Assembly (NCBI RefSeq): GCF_001999285.1
Contig: NZ_MLHN01000016.1
Coordinates: forward strand, 1 to 64,000
From: Rodentibacter genomosp. 1
GTDB taxonomy: Bacteria > Pseudomonadota > Gammaproteobacteria > Enterobacterales > Pasteurellaceae
Length of the DNA: 64,000 nucleotides
Reading direction: 5' to 3'
Part shown: positions 1-63,739 of the stretch, in pieces
How the letters are laid out: each line of letters opens with the position of its first letter
How positions within the stretch are numbered: position 1 is the stretch's first letter
Notes under the pieces: generated by a model
Databases searched by the model: none
The model's input: the letters and a program-made list of their open reading frames with translations, nothing else
What the model was told of the DNA's origin: nothing
Made by a program: the position numbers and the translations under genes

Positions 1-196
1 AGTTCACCGTATCAGCAACGAATACTTACTTAACTATGCTAATGAAATTGCGTACCGTGAGGACAATCGCCGTACCTCAAATAAAGCGCAGTTTATTGAT
101 GTATTAAGCCGATGTTTGAAAACCGCCAATGATAACAATGAATGGTGCGGTTATTGGCAACGAAAAATTATTCATCAAGAAGTGATTTGGCAGTAG
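1..196 (+). CDS. IS1595-type transposase, C-terminal fragment (gene starts before the window)
   Basis: An open frame enters from the left edge (first full codon at base 2) and ends with TAG at 194-196, leaving the last 64 residues. The fragment contains HRISNEYLLNYANEIAYRED followed by an NRR motif. This resembles the end of ISXO2-like DDE transposases of the IS1595 family, where a tyrosine-rich helix is followed by E-x-x-x-R-x-x-x-R. The catalytic triad would lie upstream of the window and cannot be checked. The stop is only 4 bp before the next ATG, so the two genes are probably co-transcribed. A matching right terminal repeat is found at 1173-1199. Family assignment is by pattern from a short piece; whether the full gene is intact is unknown. 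Confidence 0.7.
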   Translation, partial: VHRISNEYLLNYANEIAYREDNRRTSNKAQFIDVLSRCLKTANDNNEWCGYWQRKIIHQEVIWQ

Positions 197-200
197 ATAT

Positions 201-623
201 ATGGCATACAACCTAGATAAGAAGCTCAAAGAATTTGAGTTTGAACGTAAACAAGTATTGCATCATCTTGCGTTACTCGATGCGAACATTGCCACATTAA
301 AACGTGCTATTGAGCTTACTCAACAGGAAAGTGATGTAGCCCTTTATAATACGGACAATTTTGTGTACCGTTCCAAATATAAGCTCTTTAAAGGGAAAAT
401 TCGTAAATACATCGTACAAATGATGCGAGAAGCACCTAATAAAGCCTTTACAATTGCCGAGCTTACGCAGCGCATTTTTGATATTGAACAAAATCCTGAG
501 ACACCGTCTGAAAAGCATCTTGATTCCGTTCGTAAACAACTGAATGAGTTTTATAAAAGGGAATGGATTAATAGAGTTCAAATCAGCCGAAATGAGGTTC
601 ACTGGCAATGGAAACAAAAATAG
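201..623 (+). CDS. Small coiled-coil/winged-helix-like protein, probable passenger gene of the IS1595-type element
   Basis: This 140-residue protein has no function I recognise. Residues 1-45 are charged and heptad-like (likely coiled coil). Residues 60-140 look like a small helix-turn-helix/winged-helix domain: a helix ending in REAPNKAFTIAELTQRIFDIE, a further helix around DSVRKQLNEFYKRE, and a C-terminal strand with HWQW. The start lies 4 bp after the transposase stop without a clear ribosome binding site, which suggests translational coupling. The convergent gene at 645-1109 has the same order of parts and a similar central motif, so the two look like distant paralogues. A role in regulating or assisting transposition is inference only. 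Confidence 0.65.
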   Translation: MAYNLDKKLKEFEFERKQVLHHLALLDANIATLKRAIELTQQESDVALYNTDNFVYRSKYKLFKGKIRKYIVQMMREAPNKAFTIAELTQRIFDIEQNPETPSEKHLDSVRKQLNEFYKREWINRVQISRNEVHWQWKQK

Positions 624-646
624 CGGTATTTCTACCGCTATTTACT
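616..646. terminator. Bidirectional terminator between the two convergent small genes
   Basis: A perfect 11-bp inverted repeat, AAATAGCGGTA (618-628) and TACCGCTATTT (633-643), has a 4-base loop. It overlaps the stop of the plus-strand gene and abuts the stop of the minus-strand gene. The A/T arms give a T-run on both strands, as expected of a shared terminator. Confidence 0.7.
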
Positions 647-1109
647 ATCCTTGCTCAAGTGTTCTCAATCGCCAATGTTGTGAGTTATCTATTAAGCATT
701 TTTCCACTAACGATTTATACTTTAAATAGTTTAATGTACAAGCAATCGTTTGTGATTGTTTATACGGTATGACTTCTTCAATCTCTTGCCCATCTAACTT
801 CATTGCCAGATATGTAATCTCCTTCACACTTAACCATTTTGAAGGCTCTTGTTTTAGTACCTGAGCAATCAACTGTTGAGGTGAAGTTTTGAAGCGAAGA
901 TTTCTAAATTTGGGGTTTGAAGGTAAAGGCGGTTCTTCTCGACCTCTTGCGTGATTTAATACTACACGATAGTCGGAAATCTTCCGATCAAGATCTTTTA
1001 ATTCTTTATAGAGTTGCTTGATTTGCGCTGCAATTTCTTTCTTTTCGGTTTCAATTTCTTCAATTGCTTCTTCAAGCGCATTTTCCAAAGTTGATTTTTG
1101 TTTTGTCAT
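645..1109 (-). CDS. Small coiled-coil/winged-helix-like protein, second probable passenger gene
   Basis: This 154-residue protein starts with an acidic/basic coiled coil (residues 5-55, rich in E, K and I/L heptads). A short linker with REEPPLPSNP follows, then a compact helical domain with the segment IAQVLKQEPSKWLSVKEITY and a C-terminal HWRLR. Its central part matches the 140-residue neighbour position by position (I-x-Q-M/V-x-x-E-x-P-x-K-x-x-x-x-E-I/L-T), and both end in H-W-x-x-R/K. I do not recognise a named family. It is convergent with its neighbour, and its upstream region runs into the element's right terminal repeat at 1173-1199, so it sits inside the mobile element. DNA binding is inferred from fold appearance. 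Confidence 0.65.
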   Translation of the reverse strand: MTKQKSTLENALEEAIEEIETEKKEIAAQIKQLYKELKDLDRKISDYRVVLNHARGREEPPLPSNPKFRNLRFKTSPQQLIAQVLKQEPSKWLSVKEITYLAMKLDGQEIEEVIPYKQSQTIACTLNYLKYKSLVEKCLIDNSQHWRLRTLEQG

Positions 1110-1172: not shown

Positions 1173-1199
1173 TTTGTGCAACTGCTACATAATACCGAA
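1173..1199 (-). repeat. Right terminal inverted repeat of the IS1595-type element
   Basis: These 27 bases are identical to the right end of the short element at 52689-52715, and they match its left end (read on the other strand) at 25 of 27 positions. The repeat ends in CATAATACCG at 1197 and is followed by AATTTTTT (1198-1205), the same 8 bases that flank the short element on both sides. The left end of this copy would be upstream of the window. The repeat fixes the right boundary of the mobile element that carries the transposase and two small genes. Confidence 0.65.
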
Positions 1200-1298
1200 T
1201 TTTTTTACCGCACTTTATTTTTCATGTGCTTTATTTTGCGAAATCAGTCGAAATGTGGTACTTTTCCGCGCTAGTTTGGACTTTCAAAACAAAACAAT

Positions 1299-22824: not shown

Positions 22825-22858
22825 AAAAAAGTGCGGTTAAAAATGACCGCACTTTTTT
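22825..22858 (+). terminator. Terminator after cpdA formed by two inverted uptake signals
   Basis: AAAAAAGTGCGGT (22825-22837) and ACCGCACTTTTTT (22846-22858) form a 13-bp perfect hairpin with a T-run. Both arms are full uptake signals, a known dual use in Haemophilus. Confidence 0.9.
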
Positions 22859-22866
22859 TACTTTTC

Positions 22867-22980
22867 CGATATTATGTCGCCAATGTGTAAAAAGTAAATT
22901 TTAGCAAAATCTAGGGACAAAATGCGCGTGTCCCTACAAGAGAACAAAAAACAACGTTGTGTCGTTGCTACATAATATTG
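22867..22980. repeat. MITE-like element, degenerate short copy
   Basis: The ends CGATATTATG and CATAATATTG are inverted relatives of the complete element at 52545-52713, and the inside contains the shared AGGGACA...GTGTCCCTAC core. Flanking octamers TACTTTTC (22859-22866) and TCGTTTTC (22981-22988) agree at 6 of 8 positions, a possible decayed target duplication. The cpdA-miaB gap (22821-23083) otherwise holds only the terminator above. Confidence 0.6.
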
Positions 22981-52510: not shown

Positions 52511-52536
52511 GAAAAAAGGGCGGTCATAAAAACATG

Positions 52537-52721
52537 AATTTTTTCGGTATTATGTAGCAAATGCACAAAATATAAATTTCAGCGATATGTAGGGACACAC
52601 TGTGTGTCCAAATTTTAACCTGTTGAAATAACTTGATTTTTATAACGGACACACGCAGTGTGTCCCTACAAGATAACCCAAAAACAGATTTGTGCAACTG
52701 CTACATAATACCGAATTTTTT
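52537..52721. mobile_element. MITE-like element with terminal inverted repeats and 8-bp target duplication
   Basis: The element runs from 52545 (CGGTATTATG) to 52713 (CATAATACCG), 169 bp. The terminal repeats are about 25 bp and differ at two internal positions. AATTTTTT lies directly outside both ends (52537-52544 and 52714-52721), a perfect 8-bp duplication as made by IS1595-type transposases. Inside are two palindromic GGACACAC...GTGTGTCC blocks facing each other. There is no open reading frame of note. The right end is identical to the repeat at 1173-1199. It occupies most of the 307-bp pheA-gyrA gap. Confidence 0.75.
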
Positions 52722-52770
52722 GGCCGCTCTTTTTATAAGATAAGGGAATAGGGGGAGAAATCCGGTACCA

Positions 52771-63307: not shown

Positions 63308-63739
63308 ATCCTAAATTCCTAAACGATAAAGCGTAAGGACACACCGCGTGTGTCCGTTATAAAATCAACCAATTTCAATAGGTTATAAACGGACACACGC
63401 AGTGTGTCCCTACCGTTTTCCCTAAAATCACATTTTCAGCAGCTAAAAATCTAAAATTTAGCCCTATTTTCGACCGCACTTTTCTCCGATTTATTCCTCC
63501 ATTTCTTGAAAACCAAATGCGCCCTTTATCCCACGATTCCCACAGGTCAGTTTGTTGAAAAATCACAGGCAAATTTTAAGCCATTAATGGTTTCTTGCGC
63601 CAAATCATTGGGTTGAATTGTTTTTGCTCAAATTGTTCAATTTTTGCTTTACTTTTGTTTTTTTTTTGTACGATATTGCCGTTTTTGCTTGCAAAAACAG
63701 AAACATACTCACAGAAATTGATTTAATTTGGAGGTAACA
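63308..63739. other. Intergenic gap between folE and the lipoprotein gene
   Basis: This 432-bp gap holds a MITE-like core at 63332-63413, an uptake signal at 63473 and an A/T-rich leader with long T-runs near 63640-63675. The open frames in it are short and unsupported; I see no gene. Confidence 0.7.
63332..63413. repeat. Core-only copy of the MITE-like element, inverted
   Basis: Two palindromic GGACACAC...GTGTGTCC blocks are separated by about 38 bp. Read on the minus strand, the 82 bases align to positions 52589-52669 of the complete element, with a stretch of about 24 identical bases next to GTGTGTCCCTAC. The outer terminal repeats are missing. Confidence 0.65.

Follow-up and report, generated by a model that had tools for sequence, protein, structure and literature searches.

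Features at the pheA locus

The window analyzed here, a stretch of 64,000 nucleotides, carries in the gap between pheA and gyrA a 169-bp MITE with CGG...CCG ends (52545–52713, plus strand), bounded by two copies of an 8-bp target duplication, AATTTTTT (left copy, 52537–52544; right copy, 52714–52721). Its left terminal inverted repeat occupies 52545–52569 on the minus strand and its right one 52689–52713 on the plus strand, the latter identical to the end of a large transposon at 1173–1197. Counted from 52543 and 52715, the arms (52543–52569 and 52689–52715) match at 25 of 27 positions, and the right arm is exactly identical to 1173–1199. The first-pass annotation had reported the perfect duplication, the match count, and this identity, and all were reproduced. 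Matches to the MITE end at three mismatches or fewer numbered three in the window, against 0.00 expected in shuffles. A second inverted repeat, which the earlier annotation missed, is nested inside the MITE, where arms at 52588–52607 and 52651–52670 delimit a REPIN-like core (52588–52670) composed of a GTAG-tagged palindrome, a spacer, and the inverted palindrome. Because two inverted repeats are thus nested (the ends and the inner pair), the 185 bases of the MITE and its duplications form a very stable fold as RNA (−72.7 kcal/mol versus −30.5 in shuffles; z −11). Its six Rfam matches were all to eukaryotic-type miRNA and snoRNA families, fell far below gathering scores, and were rejected. NCBIfam models named gyrA, corC, galM, hisH, and hisA above their cut-offs; pheA scored below its cut-off (519.5 vs 577), with its chorismate mutase domain above cut-off.

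Outside the duplications lie the arms of the pheA terminator that the MITE interrupts. The left arm (52513–52532, plus strand) is a degenerate copy of the DNA-uptake signal (USS) with its GCGGT core at 52520–52524, 25 bp from the junction, and the right arm (52722–52734, minus strand) reads GGCCGCTCTTTTT. Empty sites, which the earlier annotation had proposed to seek in sister strains, were read downstream of pheA in 12 of 14 relatives, each with a hairpin there (−17 to −31 kcal/mol; for example, AAAAAGAGCGGTCGTAAAAATCCGTGTTTTTATGACCGCTCTTTTT in relative G123), and the other two (G120 and G130) retain end remnants. It is from the plain hairpin in these 12 relatives that the pheA terminator is recognized, by sequence comparison, as the site that the MITE entered. 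These empty sites are defined by pheA-side terminators and not by pheA–gyrA synteny; among the relatives read, both genes fell on one locus in G120 alone, with a decayed copy of the element, and no syntenic pheA–gyrA empty site was found. In relative G119, an end-like fragment lies just beyond the pheA terminator.

A truncated transposon with the same ends

The left edge of the window contains part of a large transposon, truncated by the start of the contig, a circumstance that the earlier annotation also passed over. It consists of the C-terminal part of an IS1595-type transposase (2–196, plus strand; type B by position and by eye), accessory gene 1, which encodes a predicted coiled coil and winged helix and is conserved next to transposase B (201–623, plus strand), accessory gene 2, conserved between accessory gene 1 and the transposon end (645–1109, minus strand), and the right terminal inverted repeat (1173–1197, plus strand). 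The target duplication AATTTTTT follows at 1198–1205, and beyond it lies ACCGCACTT, a USS arm of the galM–corC terminator (1207–1215, minus strand) whose core ends 14 bp from the junction. The outer flank of this end, on contig C7, and the flank at L076 4828–4835, outside a transposon end on contig C6, are reverse complements of each other; C6 runs on into galM, and C7 into corC. Transposon ends on contigs C11 and C25 pair likewise, with duplication GAAATTCA. The halves were joined because their duplications match (C7 with C6, C11 with C25). No left end of a host-genome transposon was present on the three contig starts scanned. The left-hand transposon is thus read as inserted in the galM–corC terminator, with AATTTTTT duplicated.

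The two genes lie on one short locus in seven of 10 relatives, and the gap between them is variously occupied: by an intact USS hairpin in G118 and G125, by one with a single arm base changed in G127, by MITE sequence in G117 and G119, and by other sequence in G128 and G129. Of the remaining three relatives, one (G123) has corC preceded by a transposon end; the other two (G120 and G130) have neither. With MITE sequence in two relatives and a transposon end in a third, the galM–corC terminator has probably taken more than one insertion.

Full-length transposons and their genes

Full elements were found in other genera as perfect end pairs bounding large segments. Thirty-one are distinct after dropping two repeats (L160 = L118, L159 = L114); 30 measure 6.2–10.5 kb and one 3.4 kb, and three (L172, L192, and L197) come from Pseudomonas- or Streptococcus-titled records that are possibly mislabelled. 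An element of 10,210 bp is common to relative G118 and to NZ_BBXJ01000001.1 (Rodentibacter caecimuris). The scan of named genomes for transposase B returned 49 loci, of which 40 are titled Pasteurellaceae, one Moraxella bovoculi, two Pseudomonas stutzeri, and one a Streptococcus metagenome bin, the other five being weak matches in other bins. Matches of transposase B to plasmids were all below 60% identity (best, 45%).

Each end carries 0–1 mismatch, and an exact 8-bp duplication bounds 25 of the 30 distinct elements with flanks (L197, which has none, is left out); L114 has a 7-bp duplication, and L167, L169, L191, and L195 have none in register. Two outward-facing IS1595-type transposases, A and B, are present in 26 of the 31 elements, some of them broken (L172, L198); no transposase A was detected in four, and L117 is without both. 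Loci from L156 onward were found by the search for B, so that its presence in them is built in; of the eight elements detected solely through their ends (L111–L118), seven have both transposases. Accessory gene 1 and an HTH gene each occur in 31 of 33 entries, accessory gene 2 in 28, and accessory gene 3 in eight, a tally that counts L160 = L118 and L159 = L114 twice.

The transposases fall into three types, B and the partners A1 and A2, with 60–97% identity within types and 40–51% between them; as A1 and A2 are as far apart from each other as from B, transposase A is a class by position and partner rather than an established clade. The D, D, and E columns, which we take to be the catalytic residues, are invariant in all 14 aligned transposases. 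Short A1-like fragments adjoin A2 in L111, L115, and L156, as if A1 had been replaced by A2. One A and one B transposase matched both PF12762 and PF12760 above cut-off, and two A and one B matched NF033547, which together with the terminal inverted repeats and the 8-bp duplication places the elements in the IS1595 family. They do not belong to its IS1016 subgroup: the transposon ends read CGGTATTATGTAGCAGTTGCAC, not GGGGCTGTACTAGA, and the aligned transposases are 344–390 residues long. Two further IS1595-family loci of the host genome (L080 and L081), 96.6% identical over 713 bp, are perhaps IS1016-like. The structure predicted for accessory protein 1 (mean pLDDT 83, pTM 0.54) runs from a long helix into a winged helix. 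Fur proteins head the list of the most similar solved folds, in which TM-scores are near 0.4 and no match has an E value of 0.001 or better.

Cargo is variable and mostly anti-phage. A PADLOC scan of the largest cargo proteins from 29 elements gave matches for 24, and for 21 of these the match was to restriction or methyltransferase models; L112, L114, L157, L167, and L190 gave none. A second cargo protein of L112, outside the PADLOC scan, is a DNA methylase by Pfam. In the host genome, AbiL-like genes are found on C25, and one gene on C11 has restriction-modification matches.

The 3.4-kb element L117 (644–3995) has the same ends and no transposase, and carries DoxX, MbnB/TglH-type, and DUF2063 genes. 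A metagenome contig of 9677 bases (L197, 1–9676) consists entirely of one transposon, which would be expected of a multi-copy or circular form.

Copies of the MITE and length of the duplication

In the host genome (2.35 Mb, 50 contigs), the 185 bp have 76 matches with both strands counted. The 27-mer end occurs at 27 sites and the inner palindrome in 110 matches, some counted on both strands (three mismatches or fewer in each case), and the reversed patterns gave 0 in both. The order end, palindrome, palindrome, end recurs at many places in a map of 192,757 bases of this genome. Fifty-four end pairs of MITE size were collected, 18 of them from the host genome, and pairs were merged only if 15 + 15 flanking bases agreed; spurious pairs inside large transposons account for at least two of the 54 (L157, L160), and some insertions may be shared. 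Flanking identity spans exactly 8 bp in 21 pairs, 7 bp in one, and 5, 6, 9, 10, or 11 bp in none of the 54; 30 are within one mismatch over 8 bp, against 0 or 1 in off-register comparisons.

Near-invariant ends of 22–27 bp, CGGTATTATGTAGCAGTTGCACAAA, are common to the MITEs and the large transposons, so the small element shares its ends with an autonomous one and has, in addition, both a target duplication and a natural empty site. With one mismatch or fewer, these ends occur in 23 of 34 Pasteurellaceae genomes sampled and in none of 360 other sampled genomes of the same order. Elsewhere in the window (22868–22980), next to an intact USS terminator (~22829–22857), the same family is represented by a decayed MITE with a single palindrome.

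The earlier proposal of ends and an 8-bp duplication common to the MITE and an IS1595-family element is borne out. Its further proposal, that the MITE is a non-autonomous derivative of the element at the left of the window, holds in part: the ends and duplication are shared, but the partner is a large cargo transposon rather than a simple insertion sequence, and the MITE is no plain deletion derivative, having within it a REPIN-like element that other genera carry without the ends.

The inner REPIN-like element

The inner element combines a GTAG tag, a palindrome, inverted pairs, and high copy number, as REPINs do. GTAGGG or CCCTAC is present near the expected place in 46 of the 54 MITE-size pairs, and both motifs in 35. 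Palindrome types differ between genomes: GTAGGGACACAC in the host genome, GTAGGGTGCGTTAG in G117, GTAGGGGCGGAC in G003 (the same element in G007, L122), GTAGGGGCGGGG in G056 and G007, GTAGGGACGCC in G040, and GGTCGCTGAGCTTGTCGA in G017. The tag is found in five of these six types, the exception being GGTCGCTGAGCTTGTCGA.

Most REP pairs of the host genome lie by eye inside or beside end remnants, as they would if the inner palindromes were merely part of the MITE and no separate mobile element. We consider this very unlikely, because host-type REP pairs stand free of the ends at six loci in three other genera (L094–L098, L104), where the best end match has 9–11 mismatches of 22 (L088 and L099 are too short to judge), and because in other genomes these ends surround five further types of palindrome. 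The window itself holds a REP pair without recognizable transposon ends (63333–63413), possibly a free or eroded REPIN.

A second alternative makes the MITE an ordinary deletion derivative of the transposon to which REPs were added later by local RAYT insertion. Matches to Y1 transposases in all 20 genomes searched would provide for this, as would the eight of 54 MITE-size pairs that have no GTAGGG/CCCTAC motif. The motif is nevertheless present in the other 46, the REP pair of the host genome sits by eye at a nearly constant distance from the ends, and the only Y1 match of that genome (L079, 1100–1543, on G000:C49, between hisH and hisA) contains an interrupting stop codon and lacks a neighboring REP of this kind; on balance we regard later addition as somewhat unlikely. 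A RAYT beside host-type REPs was also sought among 26 Y1 loci and judged unconvincing, such REPs being within the locus in two (L212, L217) and tightly flanking in none.

Capture of REPINs by a common MITE frame, or their exchange within it, is the reading that we prefer. By eye, the spacers that separate end from palindrome seem related across some genomes, which would favor exchange. The inner pair also seems, by eye, to face either way with respect to the outer spacers (L002 and L127 vs L015 and L090).

Insertion in register with USS terminators

In Pasteurellaceae, inverted USS pairs serve as intrinsic terminators, and the extended USS has AT tracts, according to the available part of PMC1852404. 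Target sites (n = 84; 30 of transposons, 54 of MITEs) were compared with 1066 AT-rich intergenic positions for a USS core, GCGGT/ACCGC, in both USS dialects. A correctly oriented core lies within 50 bp of 61 of the 84 sites (21 transposon, 40 MITE) versus 156 of the 1066 control positions, and both arms are present at 30 sites (16 transposon, 14 MITE) versus eight control positions, the control being non-independent positions from the window, and so from one species, which makes P values computed against it too small. Of 20 MITEs in the host genome, 18 have a USS within 45 bp at one mismatch or fewer and six lie between inverted arms. Wrongly oriented cores are also present within 50 bp (four near transposons, 17 near MITEs, eight of the latter at 20 bp), as when an element lies beside, and not inside, a USS pair.

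The nearest core lies 14 bp away at 21 sites, 21–25 bp at 27, and 32–35 bp at eight, with another distance at five. Around the first of these distances the register is sharp, with one site at 12 bp and none at 13 or 15. These modes, which were set after seeing the data, take in 91% of 91 arm distances, against 41–46% predicted from the AT content of USS neighborhoods; the AT profile therefore explains part of the register, not all of it. The two nearer distances correspond approximately to the AT tracts of the extended USS as given in the available part of PMC1852404, and AT preference together with selection explains part of the pattern.

When the sites were joined without their elements, a strong hairpin was predicted at 21 of 30 transposon sites, 16 of 54 MITE sites, and 95 of 1066 control positions. 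Pair counts alone (22 of 25, 13 of 30, and 392 of 1066, respectively) made a weak test, because AT-rich control DNA also pairs, and energy was added for this reason. One full transposon, L118, lies within the transposase gene of another.

The target preference suggested in the first-pass annotation exists, although not for the octamer AATTTTTT as such: AATTTTTT/AAAAAATT occurs 29 times in the window, the insertion sites included, so that its presence at both copies is weak evidence alone. What is preferred is AT-rich octamers at set distances from a USS core. Transposons and MITEs share one target, AT-rich DNA beside or between inverted USS arms.

Terminator loops are dispensable, AT-rich intergenic DNA, and clustering at USS terminators could arise by survivorship, if transposition were random within AT-rich DNA and only insertions in terminators persisted. 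The 87% A+T of the exact duplications agrees with this, as do the AT tracts described for the extended USS (PMC1852404, available part). Survivorship alone is unlikely in our judgment: AT-rich intergenic control positions rarely have the core that most insertion sites have, the register is sharp at 14 bp, and three of the 30 transposon sites (L157, L161, and L165) lie in a strong non-USS hairpin. These three full transposons share one hairpin type, and hairpin form may matter as well as the USS.

Discussion

The explanation that best accounts for the whole of these observations, to which we assign a probability of about 0.8, is that large Pasteurellaceae transposons of one family carry the 169-bp element along as a non-autonomous passenger. 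Speaking against it are the 23 of 84 sites at which no USS core in the correct orientation lies within 50 bp, the wrongly oriented cores, the transposon nested in another (L118), the four elements in which no transposase A was detected and the one without either transposase, and the small share of MITE sites (16 of 54) that fold into a strong hairpin. As this explanation would have it, the MITE is mobilized in trans by the machinery of the transposon, whose two DDE transposases, encoded near both ends, would bind these and carry out cleavage and joining in a mixed or paired complex. Accessory protein 1, with its coiled coil and winged helix, or one of the transposases, could read the USS and set the register. 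Landing in a terminator would spare genes and leave the insert flanked by uptake signals, which might favor spread by natural transformation. REPINs may have been captured by, or exchanged inside, the common MITE frame and so amplified via the transposon's machinery. The pairing of the transposases, the reading of the USS, and the register mechanism are all proposed from sequence. The fullest version, in which transposons throughout the Pasteurellaceae read the USS via the winged-helix factor, insert at fixed helical registers inside terminators with cargo flanked for spread by competence, and have MITEs that multiply captured REPINs, is offered tentatively, its chances being slightly below even.

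If correct, this account would tie transposition to both transcription termination and natural competence, with mobile and mostly anti-phage cargo homing to the same motif by which DNA is taken up. The USS register would provide a simple and testable target code; the elements would also show that one IS1595-type element can hold two divergent transposases and that one class of mobile element, the REPIN, can be nested in another, the MITE. Literature searches, with subscription papers mostly outside their range and the sources represented in part, listed among their matches no USS terminator as a transposon target and no REPIN within a MITE; the two-transposase backbone, USS-registered targeting, and REPIN-in-MITE nesting seem absent from those listed matches.

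The large transposons resemble the IS1595 family (PF12762, NF033547) in their DDE_Tnp_IS1595 and zinc-ribbon domains, above curated cut-offs, and in the 8-bp duplication. Siguier et al. 2009 reportedly described IS1595-family members with passenger genes. The present elements differ from the family in mostly having two divergent transposases, conserved accessory genes, a length of 6–10 kb, and a USS-terminator target. ISApl4, of the IS1016 subgroup, shares with them the IS1595 family, a Pasteurellaceae host, and 8-bp AT-rich duplications but, in contrast to the large transposon, has 712 bp, a single 217-residue transposase, and 14-bp ends GGGGCTGTACTAGA (PMC12561309, available part). The inverted pairs that form USS terminators are the same ones that serve as the target here, and the available part of PMC1852404 gives no account of them as a transposon target. 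The inner element resembles REPINs and GTAG-tagged REPs in its tag, its palindrome, its inverted pair of ~83 bp, and its many copies, as far as these are described in the available parts of PMC3116915 and PMC3733652. It is unlike REPINs in being enclosed here by DDE-transposon ends that make 8-bp duplications. Tn7 is a cargo transposon with a heteromeric transposase that inserts safely at a fixed distance near a recognized sequence. The likeness to Tn7, as generally described, is in logic only (cargo, and fixed-distance insertion near a recognized sequence); the present elements have many dispersed target sites and two transposases of IS1595 type.
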